The notes under the pieces were generated by a model. The model saw nothing but the letters and a program-made list of their open reading frames with translations. It did not search any database and was not told the origin of the DNA. Shown piece after piece: positions 3,980 through 15,448 of a stretch of DNA of 20,469 nucleotides (its first letter is position 1; each line of letters opens with the position of its first letter). Position numbers and translations under genes: made by a program. Source of the DNA: a virus; the IMG/VR virus record IMGVR_UViG_3300030382_003611, positions 1 through 20,469 of that record, one strand, 5' to 3'.

Positions 3980-4267
3980 ATGATTGAGCCCACCTCCGAG
4001 GAGATGGACAATTTGGTGCTGCAAATCGCAGCTCGACTTGACATGACGATACATGACGCTGCCAGGTCTGTCAAGCACTTCTCCCCCCTGTCGAGGCGGC
4101 TGGCAGTTGTCACCCTGGGGGGCAGGCATGGGCGCAGGCAGGTAGAGGAGTGGTGGGACACCAACCGAGCGAGGCTCAAGTCAGAATGGAACATCAGACC
4201 GAAGCTGGAACACAAGATAGCAATGCGCCAAGCCAGGGCGAAAATCTCCAAGGCATTATCGGCGTAG
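3980..4267 (+). CDS. Small basic hypothetical protein upstream of the helicase
   Basis: Up to 95 aa, not recognised. It is predicted all-helical and basic, rich in Arg in its second half (SPLSRRLAVV, GGRHGRRQVEEWWDTNRARLKSEW), which suits nucleic-acid binding, but no named domain is visible. The start is uncertain: ATG 3980 has no clear ribosome binding site, while ATG 4004 directly abuts GAGGAG; a later TTG or GTG at 4013-4016 would have better spacing. Its 3' end overlaps the helicase start by about 80 bp in another frame. It also contains, on the opposite strand, the likely promoter of the leftward recombination operon. Confidence 0.55.
   Translation: MIEPTSEEMDNLVLQIAARLDMTIHDAARSVKHFSPLSRRLAVVTLGGRHGRRQVEEWWDTNRARLKSEWNIRPKLEHKIAMRQARAKISKALSA
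4046..4074 (-). promoter_or_regulatory. Promoter for the leftward YqaJ-Rad52-SSB operon
   Basis: Read on the - strand: TTGACA (complement of 4069-4074), a 17-bp spacer, then TATCGT (complement of 4046-4051). The -35 is perfect and the -10 matches 4 of 6 bases. It points at the YqaJ start about 80 bp away. Because YqaJ and the divergent gene start 14 bp apart, a promoter inside the divergent gene is required. Confidence 0.6.
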
Positions 4268-5943
4268 ACTACACCATTGAGGACTACCTAAAACAAAGGG
4301 TTGTTCCATTCACGAACAAAGGAGACTACCGCCTTGTTGTGTGTCCTGTGTGCAAGGGCATGGTAAAACACAAGAAGCAGAGGTCGCTAAAGATACACAA
4401 TGAGCTTGGGACGTGGAAGTGCGCCAAGTGCTTCAGGTCAGGCAGGTTCGATGAGCTAAAGCGATTGTTTGGCGACACGTCATTTGCTCAGCAGGCAGGC
4501 GCAGGCAGGTCGTTTGAGACATGGGTCACAGACTTTGAGCCCATAGCAAACTATGTTGATTGGGTTGCTAATACCAGGAGCGACGAAGCATCAGGCTCTA
4601 TGGACTACCTCCGCTCGCTAGGGCTCACAGACAGAGACATAAGAGATAAATGCTTTATAGGGTATGACTCAAAGCTAGATGCTATTACCTTTTCATATCA
4701 GTATGAGAGAAGCCCTAAGACAGCATCATACCTTAGATTCTTTAGGCGCCCCGACGACTGGTGGAAAGTATCAGGTAGCTCATCTAAAGCATCATGGTAC
4801 TTACAGCATCTATTCAAGCCGGGCATTGATGAGGCCACGATATGCCAGACCCCTTTAGATGCAGCCGTGTTGTCGTCTTTGGGTGAGCCTAACTGCCTAG
4901 CTCCTGCTATTAACACCCAGGATGTCAGGTACAAGACGCATCAGCTTGCAATGCTTCAAAGGTGTGGTGTCGTTTATATTGTCCCTAACCCTACGGATGA
5001 TGGAATGCGATGGGCAATGTCAACGCAAAGGCAGGTAGGCAAGTGGAGGTGCAAGATTGTGCAGATAGACTTTTACCCCAGGGACACGCAGCAGGCAGGT
5101 TTCGACAAGTGGGTAACAGCTAAGGGCAAGGCTGACTCAGCAGCAGGTATATCAACAGCGTCAGCGAGCCATTGGATTGCTGATATAGACTATGAGTGGG
5201 ACCACCCAGAAATAACAAGAGGGTACCCTATTGGCTTAGAGCCATTGGATAAGCTGTTGTCAGGCTGGAGGGCAGGAGAGATAACCGTGTTGTCAGGCAG
5301 GAGCGGCATAGGCAAGAGCACCCTTGCTTGTTTCTTGTCATTGGTTCAGGCCGTAGATACGGCTATGCTTTACCTTACCTTTGAAGTCTTACCTAAGAAC
5401 ATAGTCCGTAAATGGATAAGCATGTTGGCCGATAAAGCGTTCCATTCATTGAGCCGGGAGCAATATGTATCAGCCAGGAAAAGGTTAGCCCGACGCTCTA
5501 TATGGATTGCTGATAACTACGGTATGGTACAGCTAGAGGACGTAAGGAAAAGCGTATATGATGCTTGCAATAGGCATATGGTTCGCTTTGTAGTCATTGA
5601 CCACCTGGGCCATCTAGTATCAATGAGCAAGGAAGATGCCACTAAGGAAAGCGGTAACATAATAAGAGAGTGCAAACGATGGGCCTTAGACCTTGGCGTT
5701 CATATACTGCTAGTGGCTCACCTTAGAAAGCCATCAGCCGGTGACGGGTCCATAGCAAAGATGGAGGACCTAAGAGGGTCAAGCGAGGTTTATCAGACAG
5801 CTGATAACATAGCCTTGCTAGATAGAAAGAACAGCGACACGGACTGTGTTGTCCGTATTGTAAAGTGCAGAGATGATTCTGGCTATGAGGGTAAGGCAGA
5901 GCTAGGCTTCGACCCATTGTCTTTGAGGTACACTCCAAAATAA
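4186..5943 (+). CDS. Primase-helicase-like replicative helicase (Twinkle/T7 gp4 type, DnaB C-terminal domain)
   Basis: 585 aa from ATG 4186; a GTG at 4150 is possible but badly spaced from its GAGG. N-terminus: a zinc ribbon with CPVC (53-56) and CAKC (79-82). Residues about 155-310 align by eye with a Toprim region (ICQTPLDAAVL 219-229, VYIVPNPTDDG 263-273), but the usual Glu of EGxxDA is Gln221 and the DxD is not clean, so primer synthesis is doubtful. C-terminus: RecA-like helicase with Walker A GRSGIGKST (371-379), LTFE (H1a), Walker B FVVID (468-472), LLVAHLRKP (H3), DLRGSSEVYQTADN and a terminal KCRDD segment. It should unwind DNA at the fork using NTP. No later in-frame start codon exists before the zinc ribbon. 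Confidence 0.85.
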   Translation: MEHQTEAGTQDSNAPSQGENLQGIIGVDYTIEDYLKQRVVPFTNKGDYRLVVCPVCKGMVKHKKQRSLKIHNELGTWKCAKCFRSGRFDELKRLFGDTSFAQQAGAGRSFETWVTDFEPIANYVDWVANTRSDEASGSMDYLRSLGLTDRDIRDKCFIGYDSKLDAITFSYQYERSPKTASYLRFFRRPDDWWKVSGSSSKASWYLQHLFKPGIDEATICQTPLDAAVLSSLGEPNCLAPAINTQDVRYKTHQLAMLQRCGVVYIVPNPTDDGMRWAMSTQRQVGKWRCKIVQIDFYPRDTQQAGFDKWVTAKGKADSAAGISTASASHWIADIDYEWDHPEITRGYPIGLEPLDKLLSGWRAGEITVLSGRSGIGKSTLACFLSLVQAVDTAMLYLTFEVLPKNIVRKWISMLADKAFHSLSREQYVSARKRLARRSIWIADNYGMVQLEDVRKSVYDACNRHMVRFVVIDHLGHLVSMSKEDATKESGNIIRECKRWALDLGVHILLVAHLRKPSAGDGSIAKMEDLRGSSEVYQTADNIALLDRKNSDTDCVVRIVKCRDDSGYEGKAELGFDPLSLRYTPK

Positions 5944-6991: not shown

Positions 6992-7261
6992 CTATCTAAA
7001 TAAACTGTTTGGCTTATCAAACAACCTAAAGAAATGCCTAGATGGTTTCATTGTTTCCAGCCATCTAGGGTGTACCCAATCGCCAGCCCTCTCTGGCACT
7101 AAGCTTTCTTGAATATACATGTCTACCATGTTGTTCCATTCTTCCCTTCTAAGGGGGCCATCTGGACACTCCCACTTTACCTGCCACCTATTCTCTTGAA
7201 TAAAGATAAGGGGCATAACCTCTTCTTTGAACCATGCTTCAAAGGTTTTCTTAGTCATCAT
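6992..7261 (-). CDS. 89-aa hypothetical protein
   Basis: Not recognised. It is rich in aromatic residues: FEAWFKEEVMPLIF, RWQVKWECPDG, WVHPRWLETM, RHFFRLFDKP. ATG 7261 is preferred because the recurrent leader GAGGAGCAAGACAATG abuts it; ATG 7258 follows directly. It overlaps the stop of the upstream gene by 11 bp. Predicted mixed helix and strand; no metal or catalytic motif seen. Confidence 0.65.
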   Translation of the reverse strand: MMTKKTFEAWFKEEVMPLIFIQENRWQVKWECPDGPLRREEWNNMVDMYIQESLVPERAGDWVHPRWLETMKPSRHFFRLFDKPNSLFR

Positions 7262-7620: not shown

Positions 7621-7893
7621 TTACTCCTTCCTCATAAGGTCGAGGGTCATTGTTGGTTTGTCTATTCCGTTATCTAAAAGGTGAGTATCAATAACTAAAT
7701 ACTCCCTAGCGCCTATGTTTACTGGCCTCCTTGATTTGCTTCTTTCTTCTGGGGTTTCGTATTCCTCGAAAGCCTCATAAGAATCAAAGACCACTACTGT
7801 ATAATCAACGGCCATGTCGTATTGATATGGCAGCTTCTTATGGTCAGTTGGGTGTAAGAATATAGTGTCGTCCATTGTTTGTACTTCTTTCAT
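7621..7893 (-). CDS. 90-aa hypothetical protein
   Basis: Not recognised. It reads as an alpha/beta fold: DYTVVVFDSYEAFEEYETPEER, then YLVIDTHLLDNG. Start 7893 has a perfect copy of the operon leader AGGAGCATAACAATG; a second ATG at 7875 is preceded by AAGTACAAACA and would drop six residues. It starts 2 bp after the stop of the 48-aa gene, whose stop codon lies inside the leader. Confidence 0.65.
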   Translation of the reverse strand: MKEVQTMDDTIFLHPTDHKKLPYQYDMAVDYTVVVFDSYEAFEEYETPEERSKSRRPVNIGAREYLVIDTHLLDNGIDKPTMTLDLMRKE

Positions 7894-10990: not shown

Positions 10991-11301
10991 GCTCAGGGTT
11001 CCGACAGGCAGGGCGGCGGAGTGTGGCACGCTGATTGCATCGTATGCAGGGCCGTGTGTTTTTATGTCATGGCAGGCAGGCAGGTATCTAAACCTATAAG
11101 CTTTCTATTCTTATAAGTGGTTTATATGCTTTATACTGTGTCTCTTTACGTTGTCGCCTATGGTCTACGCTGCCTGTTCAAAACTTTCTTCTGTCTGTTA
11201 GAGCACATCAATTGCGTTTTATTGTTGACGCGGTAGCACCTATAGTTTATTTCTAATCCATGGAAGCAACGAAACACCCAAACCATTTACAAGGTGAAAC
11301 A
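10991..11301. promoter_or_regulatory. Divergent intergenic region before the + strand gene at 11302
   Basis: About 310 bp with no convincing gene. It holds an isolated copy of CTGTCTGTT (11191-11199), a short GGCA tandem near 11082-11094 and AT-rich DNA at 11090-11140. For rightward transcription the best candidate is TTGACG (11225-11230) with TATTTC 17 bp on (11248-11253). TATAGT at 11241-11246 is a better -10 but has no good -35. Confidence 0.4.
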
Positions 11302-11544
11302 ATGAATAACGAAACTAAACCAGTCGACTACCTAGAAAAATGGCCGGCTATTATAACCGCACTAGCAAGCAATAGAGATTTGGCCGGGATTATGTGTGCT
11401 ACCGTCAAGGCAAACCATCCACTAACAGAGGGACAAGCTAAAGATGTAGCCGCTGCCCTTATGTCAGTTGGCGATAAGATGGAAACCGTAACGCGTATGC
11501 TCGCCGATTTCCGCATTATTAACAAGCAAGACGGGATTGTTTAG
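11302..11544 (+). CDS. 80-aa hypothetical protein, helical
   Basis: Not recognised. ATG 11302 is chosen over an upstream ATG at 11260 because AAGGTGAAACAATG directly precedes it. The protein is mostly helical: VDYLEKWPAIITALASNRD, MCATVKANHPLTEGQAKDV, AAALMSVGDKMETVTRMLADF. It contains no metal or catalytic motif. It is the first gene rightward of the divergent control region. A stable hairpin and 86 bp separate it from the next gene, so the two may be expressed at different levels. Confidence 0.6.
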   Translation: MNNETKPVDYLEKWPAIITALASNRDLAGIMCATVKANHPLTEGQAKDVAAALMSVGDKMETVTRMLADFRIINKQDGIV

Positions 11545-11557
11545 AGGGTAACCCTTG

Positions 11558-11584
11558 GGGACCGTGATATTTATCGCGGCTCCC
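11558..11584 (+). promoter_or_regulatory. Stable hairpin between two rightward genes
   Basis: GGGA plus CCGTGATA (11558-11569) pairs with TATCGCGG and TCCC (11572-11584): 12 pairs including one G-T wobble, one bulged C and a very tight loop. It lies between the stop at 11544 and the ribosome binding site near 11618. No U tract follows, so it is better read as an RNA processing, stability or attenuation element than as a simple terminator. Confidence 0.55.
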
Positions 11585-11630
11585 TGGGGTGGATTCTCTG
11601 CCCAATTTATAACTACTGGAGAATAGAACA

Positions 11631-12263
11631 ATGGGAAACAATCAAACAACAACCAACGTTAAAACCGACCAGCTCGCCGCCCTCGTTAAGAAGGCTCAAC
11701 AGATAGACGCTATGACGGGCGAAAATACGGACCTAATAGCAGAGGTAGAAAAGCTTAAGGCTCTCTGTGGAGCTAAGGACAAGGCCTTAAGGAGGGCGTC
11801 GGCAGCCTCATCCCACAACGGAGACGTTGTAAAGCTTATTGCTCTCAGTCAGAAGGCTCTGCACTTGGCGCTTAAGTTCCGCTCCCAAGGTTATAGGGGG
11901 CATTCATTCGTTGACCATAAAACGGGCGAACTTCGGAACCTGGGCGCCGCTTGCCCTCTATCGGCTCAACTAATGGCCGTTATCGTTGGGGAGATTAGAA
12001 CCAGCAAGAGCAACGGCCACAAGTCAGCAGCGGCGCCGGCTTCTGTGTCTGTTGATGCTCTGACTAACGCTGACAAGCTTAAAGCGCTCAAGTCTGAGGG
12101 TTATAGTGTCGCGTCTCTCTCTGGTATTCATCATGCGTCTAAGGCTTACAGTGTAAAGCTTGATGCTCTATACCAGAAGCACATCAAAGGGACTGCCACG
12201 CCAACGACCACAGCAAAGACGGTTGAGTCGGTAGTCTTCGACCTGTCTGATTTCCTGAACTAA
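11631..12263 (+). CDS. 210-aa hypothetical protein with N-terminal coiled coil
   Basis: Not recognised. Residues about 12-55 (QLAALVKKAQQIDAMTG, DLIAEVEKLKALCGAKDKAL) form a likely coiled coil. A central part follows (KLIALSQKALHLALKFRSQGY, then DHKTGELRNLG), then an Ala/Ser-rich linker near 128-140 and a helical C-terminal module (DKLKALKSEGYSVASLSGIHHASKAY) ending in acidic VVFDLSDFLN. The linker and separate C-terminal module suggest a two-part scaffold or DNA-binding oligomer. The start has GGAGAATAGAACAATG. A terminator follows 25 bp after the stop, closing this two-gene unit. Confidence 0.65.
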   Translation: MGNNQTTTNVKTDQLAALVKKAQQIDAMTGENTDLIAEVEKLKALCGAKDKALRRASAASSHNGDVVKLIALSQKALHLALKFRSQGYRGHSFVDHKTGELRNLGAACPLSAQLMAVIVGEIRTSKSNGHKSAAAPASVSVDALTNADKLKALKSEGYSVASLSGIHHASKAYSVKLDALYQKHIKGTATPTTTAKTVESVVFDLSDFLN

Positions 12264-12289
12264 ACCTAAATCATCTAACTCCTAACAAG

Positions 12290-12318
12290 GGGGCGGCTTT
12301 CGGGTCGCCCCTTTTTTT
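12290..12318 (+). terminator. Intrinsic terminator of the two-gene rightward unit
   Basis: GGGGCG (12290-12295) pairs with CGCCCC (12306-12311) around a 10-nt loop and is followed immediately by seven T residues (12312-12318). It lies about 25 bp after the stop at 12263. Confidence 0.85.
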
Positions 12319-12511
12319 ATGCCTTGAGTCTAGAACCCAGCCAAGCACCAGCGGCCCACCTTACGAGATATCCTGAGAGGCTCACAAATAGCCCTAGACT
12401 GGACGCAACTGACTAAGCCTAGCCCTACCTACTGCGGCCACGGCTTCCGGCTTCTAATGCTGTGATTCTGTTTCTCGGTACAGTTGGAGAGTTTCACCTA
12501 CTGCCTATTCC

Positions 12512-12586
12512 CTGTCTGTTGTGGCCTCTCTTCTGTCTGTTGCCTGTCTGTTACCTTGTTCATTCTATACCTGTTGCCTGTCTGTT
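12512..12586 (+). repeat. Four direct repeats CTGTCTGTT (iteron-like)
   Basis: Exact 9-bp copies at 12512-12520, 12533-12541, 12544-12552 and 12578-12586. Starts are 21, 11 and 34 bp apart, close to whole helical turns, so bound proteins would face one side of the DNA. A fifth copy lies at 11191-11199 in the other intergenic region. Confidence 0.7.
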
Positions 12587-12668
12587 CTATTATATAAAAA
12601 GCGTATACCGTATAACTGTATAACAGAGGGTATATATATACATAGAAGCTATAGGATAAAGGATAAAC

Positions 12669-12687
12669 CTGTTTACTATGTAAACAG
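12669..12687. promoter_or_regulatory. 19-bp palindrome CTGTTTAC-TAT-GTAAACAG
   Basis: A perfect 8-bp inverted repeat around a 3-bp centre, directly after two tandem GGATAAA units and AT-rich DNA. The size and symmetry fit a dimeric DNA-binding protein (repressor or initiator). No matching copy was noticed elsewhere in the window. Confidence 0.55.
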
Positions 12688-12888
12688 ACACCCGGGGAGA
12701 CCTCTAGCGCCCCGAAGCTGCCAGCAGGTATAATATATATAAAGATTCAGCACCCCCCCCCTCTTAATAACTTGCTACGTAGCGTTATTTTACTGAGCGA
12801 CAAATAGCATTACTATCTGGTCTGCATGTGTTTGTTATTGGCGCCATGTAGGTATGGGTTCGGAAGCGCCTTATCTTTGCCTTAAAAA

Positions 12889-12928
12889 GGAATACCTCAC
12901 CAAGGGAAACAGACTGATGAGGTATTCC
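12889..12928 (+). promoter_or_regulatory. Long hairpin GGAATACCTCA / TGAGGTATTCC with an 18-nt loop
   Basis: A perfect 11-bp inverted repeat (12889-12899 and 12918-12928). The loop carries a purine-rich AAGGGAAA, and the 3' arm covers an ATG at 12917 that opens a 36-codon frame. On the - strand the hairpin is followed by TTTTT, so a leftward terminator is an alternative reading. Confidence 0.5.
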
Positions 12929-13027
12929 GAAGCAAAACAATGGATTTCACCTTACCACAGCCTCAAAAACCATGTCAAACGACAAAATAAACTTATTCTT
13001 TTTATTCACTATACGTCTACTCCGTAG
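12917..13027 (+). CDS. Possible 36-aa peptide under a hairpin
   Basis: ATG 12917 to TAG 13027, starting MRYSEAKQWISPYHSL and basic overall. AAGGGAAA lies about 9-12 nt upstream in the loop of the hairpin at 12889-12928. The composition looks protein-like, but the frame is too short to judge and no family is recognised. A second ATG in another frame at 12940, with the phage's AGCAAAACAATG context, would give only 16 residues. Confidence 0.25.
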   Translation: MRYSEAKQWISPYHSLKNHVKRQNKLILFIHYTSTP

Positions 13028-13133
13028 ACTATTCAGTTGATTCAGTGAGTTAGTAGGCTAGTGAGTTAGAACTTAAGGCATCGGTTGAATTAGTTAGGAA
13101 TAAGTACAACAATGTGCGGGTTCCGAATGTCGG

Positions 13134-13162
13134 TTGACAGAGCATTCAGGGTGTGGTAGCTC
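13134..13162 (+). promoter_or_regulatory. Possible promoter for the replication/packaging operon
   Basis: TTGACA (13134-13139), a 17-bp spacer and TAGCTC (13157-13162) lie about 35 bp before the start at 13195. The -35 is perfect but the -10 is poor, which suggests an activator or a weak promoter. A second pair, TTGAAT (13085-13090) and AACAAT (13108-13113), matches 4 of 6 in each box. Confidence 0.4.
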
Positions 13163-13194
13163 TCGGGGTCTACTCAAAATAGGGGAAACGCCTG

Positions 13195-14034
13195 ATGGAA
13201 GAGATTAAGATACCTGCCAGGGTACTCGAGGAGAGGCTGTCGCCTGGGGCGAAGGTGCTGTTCGGGTACATATATACTACGTCTGATGACCAGGGGAAGC
13301 TGGAGGGGGTCTCGCAAGGGGAGATGTCCCTCGCGTGCGGTATGACCAGAGGAGCCGCCTCAAGAGCGCTCTCAGAGCTTGTGGGGGCTGCCCTCCTCAA
13401 GATGATCCGCCTACCGTCAGACTACCTAGAACGGAAACCATTTAGCTACACTGTGGAATGTCCTGATGCCCCAGCTCCGGTTGTTCGGGAGCCAGACATT
13501 CGAGCAAACGGGGTCGTTCCGTACCGCGATATCGTCTCCGCTTACAACAGCGCTGCTGCTACGAACGGGATGGCTCAAGCCAAGAAGCTCACCAAGAAAC
13601 GCAGAGGCGCTGCTAAACGACTGTTCGATACACTCAACAAAGACATAAGCACCATTACCCAATACTTCGGGTGGCTATCCGAAAGCGACTTCTACGGCGG
13701 TGCTAACGATAGAGGATGGAAGGCCGACTTCGACTATGTATGCGAAGAAAGAGTTATACTCAGATTCATGGAAAAGGGTGAGCACATAAAGGCAGAGACA
13801 TTCTCAGACACAAGATCAGAAAAAGAAAGACTAGCAAGAGTCTTCGATGATGCCAGAAAACAAACACAGAACTATACCTCCAGATGCGCCGCCGATGGGA
13901 AACACCCAAAAGACAACACCAAAGCATTCTGGAAAAACATTTCTGACTTCCTGATAAGGGAAAATGCTATGTCCATACTGCCACAACTAAAACAATACGT
14001 TGGCGACTATTGGAGAAGCATTGATGGAGATTGA
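13195..14034 (+). CDS. Replisome organiser-like replication initiation protein
   Basis: 279 aa. The N-terminus is a winged helix (SPGAKVLFGYIYTTSDDQGK, then the recognition-like MSLACGMTRGAASRALSELV, residues 44-63). A variable linker follows. The C-terminal part has VPYRDIVSAYN, KKLTKKRRGAAKRLF and SDFYGGANDRGWKADFDYV (164-182), which match phage replisome-organiser proteins (an LTxKRR element, then SDFLxGxNxRGWKADFDW). The usual family ending NFxKVLEG is replaced by a longer basic tail. The protein should bind origin repeats and recruit the helicase. It lies next to the iteron region at 12512-12687. RBS AGGGGAAACGCCTGATG. Confidence 0.75.
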   Translation: MEEIKIPARVLEERLSPGAKVLFGYIYTTSDDQGKLEGVSQGEMSLACGMTRGAASRALSELVGAALLKMIRLPSDYLERKPFSYTVECPDAPAPVVREPDIRANGVVPYRDIVSAYNSAAATNGMAQAKKLTKKRRGAAKRLFDTLNKDISTITQYFGWLSESDFYGGANDRGWKADFDYVCEERVILRFMEKGEHIKAETFSDTRSEKERLARVFDDARKQTQNYTSRCAADGKHPKDNTKAFWKNISDFLIRENAMSILPQLKQYVGDYWRSIDGD

Positions 14035-14188
14035 GATAAAGTGGGCTGTCTTGCTTATAGAAAGCAAACTTTCAGAATACGGAAAAGAACAGTTCCACAA
14101 AATGTGCTGCGAATCAAAACTGAACATGGTGTTCGACGCCATGACATCTGAAATTTTTGATGAGGTCTTTCCAACCAACTACGCTTGA
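14024..14188 (+). CDS. 54-aa hypothetical protein in the replication block
   Basis: Not recognised. ATG 14024 is chosen over 14000 because GGAGAAGCATTGATG sits upstream. It overlaps the organiser gene by 11 bp. It is helical and acidic (MEIEIKWAVLLIESKLSEYG, then KLNMVFDAMTSEIFDEVF) with a Cys pair (MCCESK). Position suggests a replication accessory; no motif supports it. Confidence 0.55.
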   Translation: MEIEIKWAVLLIESKLSEYGKEQFHKMCCESKLNMVFDAMTSEIFDEVFPTNYA

Positions 14189-14196
14189 GGCAAACA

Positions 14197-14868
14197 ATGG
14201 ATATAAAAATCAAAGCTGTTTTAGAAAAACTCTTCAGGGCTTACAACAGAAGACCAACAGACCAAGCCCTAGAAAACTACCTGGAGTTCACCGATGGGTA
14301 CTCCTTCCATGCAATCAAAGAAGCCGTGAACAGACACGTTGACGCTGGCGGCACCATGCCAAACCCAGCCGACGTGAAAAACACATGCCGCTCCGTTGTA
14401 GGGCCGAGACCCGAACAATGCGCCGAATGTGACGGCAAAGGCTATAAGCAACAAGAAGAAAAGAAAGATAAATACGGGTTCGATTATATCGACGCCATCG
14501 TTAGCTGCTTCTGTAAAGCACCACACAATAAAACCATCACCGACCAAAACAGAGCAAAGGCCCACTCGTTCGGTAGAATACTAGCAAGAACCATCGCCGT
14601 AAGATCCGTTAGCAACGAAATGACCGTTCCTAAATGGATACTCTTCTGGTGGAGCAAAGACGGGGGCCAGGGCAAGTGGGCTCTGCTAGGCACCAAGATA
14701 GATAACATGCAAGTCCTTAACGGCGCCGCCGAGTTTGCCGAAAAAGCCAAACCAGACGACTGCGCCTTCTATGCCTTCGACATCGCAAAGGATGCAATCA
14801 GATATGGGAAAAAAATCTTTAGACAAGGGCAAGCGATGGGAAAGGGAAGTTTCACGCCTTTTCGCTGA
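14197..14868 (+). CDS. Helicase-loader-like protein with a zinc finger
   Basis: 223 aa from ATG 14197 (GAGGCAAACAATG). The N-terminal 65 residues (VLEKLFRAYNRRPTD, YSFHAIKEAVNRHVDAGGT, MPNPADVKN) resemble the helical N-terminal domain of phage and Gram-positive helicase loaders (G39P/DnaI-type), where a helix pair ends in FPPxxADI. It continues with CAEC (75-78) and CFC (104-106), a probable zinc finger with a DnaJ-like CxxCxGxG start. The C-terminal part (VPKWILFWWSKDGGQGKWALLG, split) has no visible Walker A, so it is not an AAA+ loader. Following an organiser gene, a role in loading the helicase is a reasonable inference. Confidence 0.55.
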   Translation: MDIKIKAVLEKLFRAYNRRPTDQALENYLEFTDGYSFHAIKEAVNRHVDAGGTMPNPADVKNTCRSVVGPRPEQCAECDGKGYKQQEEKKDKYGFDYIDAIVSCFCKAPHNKTITDQNRAKAHSFGRILARTIAVRSVSNEMTVPKWILFWWSKDGGQGKWALLGTKIDNMQVLNGAAEFAEKAKPDDCAFYAFDIAKDAIRYGKKIFRQGQAMGKGSFTPFR

Positions 14869-15136
14869 TGCCATGCCCGGGACAAACATAAAGCGCGGTT
14901 TCCAAAGAAGAGTCGGCTTCGACGAATCAGATGTCGTTACACCCTGGTTTTGGGTAGAGTGTAAAGTAGGGAAACGGACCAACCCAAGAGCCGGGCTACA
15001 ACAAGCCAAAGACGAGAACGGCACAAACAAGGTTCCGGTTTGTTGTTGCAAAGACGACAGAAAAGAGCCATTTGTTATACTGGAGCTAAATGACTTTCTG
15101 AGAATGGTGAACAAGCTCTGGGAACAGGAGAAGTAA
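14804..15136 (+). CDS. PD-(D/E)XK-type nuclease, resolvase-like
   Basis: 110 aa from ATG 14804. The pattern KGKRWEREVSRLF (E13/E15), ESDVVTPWFWVECKVGKR with Asp43, Glu52 and Lys54 (the ExK pair), then PVCCCKDDRKEPFVIL, matches small phage and archaeal Holliday-junction-resolvase-like PD-(D/E)XK enzymes. It may cut branched replication intermediates before packaging. The open frame extends 69 nt further 5', but this start keeps the nuclease core intact and overlaps the previous gene by 65 bp. No strong ribosome binding site is seen (GGATGCAATCAGATATG), so expression may depend on coupling. It lies directly before the HNH protein and terminase genes. Confidence 0.65.
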   Translation: MGKKSLDKGKRWEREVSRLFADAMPGTNIKRGFQRRVGFDESDVVTPWFWVECKVGKRTNPRAGLQQAKDENGTNKVPVCCCKDDRKEPFVILELNDFLRMVNKLWEQEK

Positions 15137-15448
15137 ATGCCATACAAAGGCGTAGGATACACTGGCGGTAAGAAAAAAAAGAAAACCACCAAGAAGAAGA
15201 AGAAGAAGAAATCTTCTCAAGCCAAGACCAAGCGCAACTATAAAAAAGAGTACAAGCGCGACCACTCCTCCACAAAAGCGAAAAAGGCTAGAGCAGCCCG
15301 CAATAAAGCAAACAAGAAGCTAAAGCCAGGAAAAGGCAAAGAGGTTGATCATATCGTCCCCCTATCCAAAGGCGGAAGCAACGGTAAGAAAAACTGGCGC
15401 ATTGTCTCACGCAAAACAAACCGAACAAAAGCTGCTAAGAGGAAGTAA
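15137..15448 (+). CDS. HNH-like endonuclease with a lysine-rich N-terminus
   Basis: 103 aa, extremely basic. Residues 11-30 are mostly Lys, encoded by an AAG/AAA tract. The C-terminal part, RNKANKKLKPGKGKEV then DHIVPLSKGGSNGKKNW and RIVSRKTNR, is the beta-beta-alpha HNH pattern: DH71-72, Asn86, and Asn95 in place of the third His. HNH proteins beside the large terminase assist DNA cutting during packaging in several phages. The Lys tail could bind DNA electrostatically. The start directly follows the nuclease stop, with GGAGAAGTAAATG. Confidence 0.7.
   Translation: MPYKGVGYTGGKKKKKTTKKKKKKKSSQAKTKRNYKKEYKRDHSSTKAKKARAARNKANKKLKPGKGKEVDHIVPLSKGGSNGKKNWRIVSRKTNRTKAAKRK

Follow-up and report, generated by a model that had tools for sequence, protein, structure and literature searches.

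The two replication origins of Bacillus phage SPP1, oriL and oriR, are made of direct repeats and an AT-rich unwinding element bound by gp38, with oriR located in a long intergenic region (PMC6316719). In lambda and the Stx phages, the ori has at least four iterons next to an AT-rich tract and is found within the O gene (PMC7466680). The stretch analysed here, a virus record of 20469 bp that we refer to as the window, holds a repeat array that resembles both systems and departs from both. As in SPP1 (G38P-G39P-G40P), direct repeats have an adjoining AT-rich element, the helicase is phage-encoded and the initiator gene is followed by what may be a further replication gene (14185-14868). The repeat itself differs from that of SPP1, there is one main array, and it lies outside the initiator gene whereas SPP1 oriL lies within gene 38; the helicase gene of the window also includes a primase part and is found on the opposite side, ~7 kb away, and the loader encoded at 14185 is a candidate. 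The protein encoded at 13195-14034 shares with the lambda and Stx O protein the C-terminal domain of phrog_345, but in lambda the iterons form part of the O gene and are bound by O dimers, whereas the array in the window is 608 bp upstream and is built of 9-bp direct units paired at 11 bp. Most lambda-type origins are inside the initiator gene, and several O-like relatives that we examined have repeats spaced 20-24 bp inside the gene; no repeat array was found inside 13195-14034, where a lambda ori in the strict sense would have its iterons. Iteron plasmid origins (P1, RK2, F type) differ in another way, as no plasmid-type Rep gene is among the families matched by the scanned window proteins. 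No clear DnaA boxes were seen by eye.

Repeat array in the longest gene-free stretch

An earlier note on this DNA had described four exact copies of CTGTCTGTT (12512, 12533, 12544 and 12578, spaced 21, 11 and 34 bp) in the longest gene-free stretch, 500 bp before the gene at 13195, and these observations are borne out. With the gene list used here the stretch covers 12264-13194 (931 bp; the next longest is 472 bp) and the distance to the gene is 507 bp. What the note missed is the grouping identified with a repeat finder, in which each copy is one half of a 23-bp box; there are three boxes, spaced 32 and 34 bp (Table 1). Every box contains two 9-bp units 11 bp apart, both of them exact in the middle box and one exact and one degenerate in each of the outer boxes. 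The unit spacings of 11, 21, 32 and 34 bp are helix-phased, with 34 slightly off phase. Allowing at most one mismatch, CTGTCTGTT has 21 matches in the window against an expected 4.8 +/- 2.1 (0/100 shuffles), and the array score of the gene-free stretch was reached by none of 300 dinucleotide-preserving shuffles. An iteron-type phage origin of the lambda/SPP1 kind is characterized by a short word that is directly repeated several times, more often than chance would allow. When folded as RNA the array did worse than shuffles, and Rfam gave no match.

Table 1. Features of the candidate origin region and associated genes; positions are those of the window.
Feature	Position	Strand	Description
Phage DNA primase/helicase	4150..5943	+	phrog_239 E=6e-46, DnaB_C E=1e-21
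Second site	11170..11199	-	AACAGGCAG (11170) and AACAGACAG (11191), 21 bp apart
Intrinsic terminator	12287..12314	+	12-pair stem then T run; left border of the gene-free stretch
Box 1	12498..12520	-	Degenerate AATAGGCAG 12501-12509 and AACAGACAG 12512-12520, 11 bp apart; repeat finder and exact copy
Box 2	12530..12552	-	Exact units 12533 and 12544, 11 bp apart; repeat finder and exact copies
Box 3	12564..12586	-	Degenerate AACAGGTAT 12567-12575 and exact unit 12578, 11 bp apart
Candidate DNA unwinding element	12587..12661		AT-rich; holds GTATA at 12603, 12610, 12618, 12630
GGATAAA tandem pair	12654..12667	+	Sequence; copies at 12654 and 12661
Perfect palindrome	12669..12687		CTGTTTAC-TAT-GTAAACAG; sequence; hairpin on folding
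Inverted near-copy of unit	12683..12691	+	AACAGACAC; far side of the AT-rich DNA
CGGGGAGACCTCTAG	12693..12707		Matched in L011 at 7238-7252, corresponding place
CGTCTACTCCGTAGACT palindrome	13014..13030		L011 7386-7402 CGGCTACTCCGTAGCCT, one paired change; GC-skew minimum at 13023
TTGACAG, candidate -35 of the initiator gene	13134..13140	+	Collinear with L011 7494
Replication initiator	13195..14034	+	Helix-turn-helix ~14-69 and lambda O-like C-terminal domain 108-194
Candidate helicase loader	14185..14868	+	Conserved in L011 and L013; weak phrog_10105 match

AT-rich DNA and flanking elements

On its right the array directly adjoins the least stable DNA of the 20.5 kb window, a property that holds at all scales tried (30-150 bp) and had also been missed. 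This segment is 72-73% AT compared with 53% in the window. The other elements that the note had placed here, four GTATA words, a tandem GGATAAA pair and the 19-bp palindrome CTGTTTACTATGTAAACAG, are all present in the sequence, and GTATA occurs once more at 12728; with 23 occurrences in the window, GTATA is a common word and weak evidence taken alone. Compared with the DnaA box, the GGATAAA pair is a poor match (6/9 by eye). The inverted near-copy of the unit, again not picked up before, overlaps the 19-bp palindrome. Further into the stretch are an imperfect palindrome AATAACTTGCTACGTAGCGTTATT (12766-12789), similar to the CTACTCCGTAG palindrome at 13014-13030, and a strong inverted repeat, GGAATACCTCACCA...TGATGAGGTATTCC (12889-12928), whose loop carries AACAGACTG and which as RNA folds far better than shuffles (z -4.9).

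Neighbouring genes

The strong terminator at the left border closes the transcription unit 11260-12263. To the right, the product of 13195-14034 matches phrog_345 'replication initiation O-like' (E=3e-14 over residues 108-194), and by this C-terminal domain the gene is classified as a lambda O-like initiator, providing a candidate initiator near the array. Its helix-turn-helix is weak (HTH_36/MarR below the Pfam cut-off). The 14185-14868 product matched no family of known function, its weak hit phrog_10105 being a family of unknown function. Its position and N-terminal pattern suggest that it may be a helicase loader, and the N-terminus gives a G39P-like impression that may be taken as a candidate likeness. 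Structure models of the two products are partly confident only (mean pLDDT 71 and 61, respectively), and neither had a significant match in the PDB. The primase/helicase encoded at 4150-5943 is the likely cargo of the candidate loader. A P22-type portal and large terminase are encoded on the right side of the window. In addition, GAGCATAACAATG occurs seven times on the minus strand between 7891 and 10700, at or near the starts of small leftward genes, as a repeated translation-start leader.

Cumulative GC skew, which the earlier note had proposed as a check, reaches its minimum at 13023 inside the gene-free stretch; this is consistent with an origin but confounded with gene orientation, which changes in the same area.

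A second cluster and the possibility of an operator

A fifth exact copy of CTGTCTGTT, absent from the earlier note, was found at 11191, accompanied by a near-copy, CTGCCTGTT, at 11170. This second site is near the window's second least stable 50 bp (11085-11135) and sits where the transcription units 10902(-) and 11260(+) diverge, close to a strong sigma-70-like promoter (10990-10961). The two clusters may recall the two SPP1 origins, with the smaller one equally well an operator. Another word, CAGGCAGG, has nine plus-strand copies (4135-5294 and 11005-11084), which cluster in the gene for the primase/helicase and in the region of the divergent promoters.

The surroundings of the second cluster bring in the main rival to the origin reading, namely that the 11-bp units at 12501-12586 and 11170-11199 are bound by one phage transcription factor, which would regulate the divergent early promoters and also an unrecognised promoter in the gene-free stretch. 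A 145-aa protein with two HTH motifs is encoded at 754-1191 and could act as such a regulator, and the head-to-tail arrangement at 11-bp intervals would also fit a regulator of the OmpR/PhoB type. We nevertheless regard an operator array as unlikely, given that no promoter-like site was found around 12500-12760, that ~550 bp separate the array from the candidate promoter ahead of 13195 (for whose TTGACAG no good -10 partner was found in the window), and that the unit elsewhere is mostly found in initiator genes, not operators.

Comparison with a related phage

The only close relative found, L011, has the same gene order, including the initiator gene followed by the 14185-type gene, with a large terminase that is 72% identical and an initiator that is 31% identical. 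Its gene-free stretch lacks CTGTCTGTT and has direct repeats of its own, CATGTGCGT at 7187, 7202 and 7217 with a near-copy at 7141 (0/300 shuffles). If initiator and site evolve together, a relative whose initiator has diverged should also have a different array, as L011 does; such co-evolution may have occurred here, although two genomes cannot establish it. In the linker of the L011 initiator gene (7790-7830) there is also a 22-bp near-tandem repeat, CAGTGTCAAGAATCTTGTCACT / CAGTGTCAAGAAAGTTGACACA, possibly a lambda-like internal iteron set.

To the right of both arrays, the two stretches share a collinear chain of matches comprising CGGGG.G.CCTCTAG, CCCC.TC.TAATAA, the CTACTCCGTAG palindrome with one paired change, and TTGACAG. 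The chain scores 19.5 versus 10.0 +/- 2.7, with 1/60 shuffles as good, which is modestly significant; the single matches are not significant. It could be argued from this chain that the origin is in the gene-free stretch but that its working part is the L011-conserved 12693-13030 (CGGGG..CTCTAG, CCCC..TAATAA and the CTACTCCGTAG palindrome), leaving the CTGTCTGTT array accessory or unrelated, and both the GC-skew minimum and another unstable segment at 12984-13034 fit such an arrangement. We find it improbable, as the least stable DNA adjoins the array instead, the significance of the chain is modest, and the conserved sequence also fits the leader of the initiator gene. Beyond L011's own contig, a pattern scan for the shared palindrome returned three matches (L109-L111), apparently in unrelated coding DNA, and DNA similarity to 11200-15200 was not found in any of 50,697 phage records.

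The same word in other phages

The earlier note did not recognise the repeat from a known origin. That statement holds in so far as no published description was found in the open-access literature, but the word does recur in initiator genes of other phages. The IMG/VR scans described here were seeded with the window's own word and show where its arrays occur, not what binds in the window. Three close copies of CTGTCTGTT were found in 16 stretches, five of which (L098, L100, L104, L106, L108) are inside a winged-helix/DnaD-like helicase loader gene. Pairs at a spacing of exactly 11 bp were found in 20 stretches on 19 contigs, and on 10 of these contigs (L098, L106, L108, L121, L124, L125, L127, L128, L129, L131) the pair is inside a winged-helix/DnaD-like initiator gene; these represent seven distinct proteins, since L128, L129 and L131 are near-copies of L127, and L125 has the weakest initiator assignment. 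Of the other contigs with an 11-bp pair, four have it in DNA polymerase genes that are nearly identical and three in the leader region of a gene; one has an 11-bp satellite and one an intergenic array (L120). A permuted control word, identical in composition, was found at one locus in IMG/VR. The intergenic array of L120 (3579-3622) is non-coding, has four CTGTCTGTT near-copies at 11-bp spacing in a gene-free stretch and looks much like the window's; in three related contigs (L123, L126, L133), AACAGACAG pairs stand directly before gene starts and are perhaps leader repeats.

Units in these initiator genes recur every 11-12 bp. At 11-bp spacing the units fall in each of the three reading frames, so what is repeated and kept is the word in the DNA rather than a protein sequence; the exception is L100, with 12-bp spacing. 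Nine such genes were examined, and in eight of them the 60-bp segment of lowest stability within the gene starts where the array ends on its 3' side, or close by. The winged-helix/DnaD-like helicase loaders of phrog_2514 (L098, L106, L108, L121, L124, L127 and others) have several traits in common with the window: the 9-bp AACAGACAG unit, the 11-bp spacing (in the window exact at 12533/12544 and degenerate at 12501/12512 and 12567/12578), A/G variation at unit position 6, and an array with adjoining least stable DNA. The variant AACAGGCA of these other phages' initiator genes is also the variant at 11170 in the window. The differences are that their array is inside the initiator gene and has up to seven units, and that the unwinding element, relative to unit orientation, is on the side opposite to that in the window. 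Homology of the phrog_2514 initiators to the 13195 protein could not be demonstrated, as the hhalign probability was 5% and covered the HTH alignment only, and a profile of the word-carrying initiators had no match among the window proteins. We also considered whether an ancestral minus-strand initiator gene lies under the array, and rejected it because the only match of the profile was to the translated array itself (E=0.009) and no winged helix was found upstream.

In cellular genome contigs, strict triples of the word were found at 13 loci. Most of these are simple tandem or coding repeats and no initiator was seen among them, so the association of word and initiator holds for the viral collection only. 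The prevalence of simple tandem repeats among these loci would suit a neutral tandem-repeat remnant in the window, or a packaging or other site without a role in replication. This seems to us very improbable, because spacings of 11, 21, 32 and 34 bp with unrelated DNA between copies are not those of a slippage array and because the array is beside the helix-stability minimum and before the initiator gene; for a packaging site, the terminase gene is 3 kb away.

Taken across phages, it is conceivable, and we put it forward tentatively, that winged-helix initiators of unrelated phage groups share a portable binding unit, AACAGACAG at 11-bp spacing, which is kept within the gene in some of them and in a separate non-coding origin here.

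Proposed origin and its significance

We think that 12498-12691 is probably the core of a theta-type origin of the iteron and unwinding-element kind, and we hold this, including the mechanism below, with reasonable confidence. The earlier description of the locus as origin-like is upheld to the extent that phased repeats adjoin the least stable DNA, an O-like initiator gene is located downstream, the GC-skew minimum falls in the same stretch and the word forms 11-bp arrays in initiator genes of other phages. Against it stand the lack of CTGTCTGTT in L011, an O-like HTH that is not demonstrably homologous to that of the word-carrying initiators, and the divergent promoter region around 11170-11199, which also suits a transcription regulator. 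The repeats, their phasing, the minimal helix stability, the neighbouring initiator gene and the recurrence of the unit in initiator genes elsewhere are directly observed, and from them we infer origin activity of 12498-12691; binding of the repeats by the 13195 protein, which the earlier note took as probable, is plausible. It is probable that this is an origin of the lambda/SPP1 kind that has been placed outside its initiator gene.

In the mechanism we propose, the winged-helix domain of the initiator, most likely the O-like 13195-14034 protein, would bind the three boxes on one face of the DNA. The bound initiator would then bend or wrap the DNA and melt the adjoining AT-rich element, with the palindrome and inverted near-copy at 12669-12691 possibly bounding the melted zone. 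The C-terminal domain and the 14185-14868 product could subsequently deliver the phage primase/helicase to the open strand.

The feature is real and well delimited. Its most likely identity is that of an ordinary phage origin of the iteron type, whose repeat word also turns up in the initiator genes of other phages. It is rare for the origin of an uncultivated phage to be located, and the candidate here is placed to ~200 bp with a testable initiator. If the AACAGACAG unit is indeed portable, origins could be recognisable from DNA alone across uncultivated phages. As a general initiator site, the word would provide a sequence handle for finding origins and a way to ask how an origin moves inside and outside its initiator gene.
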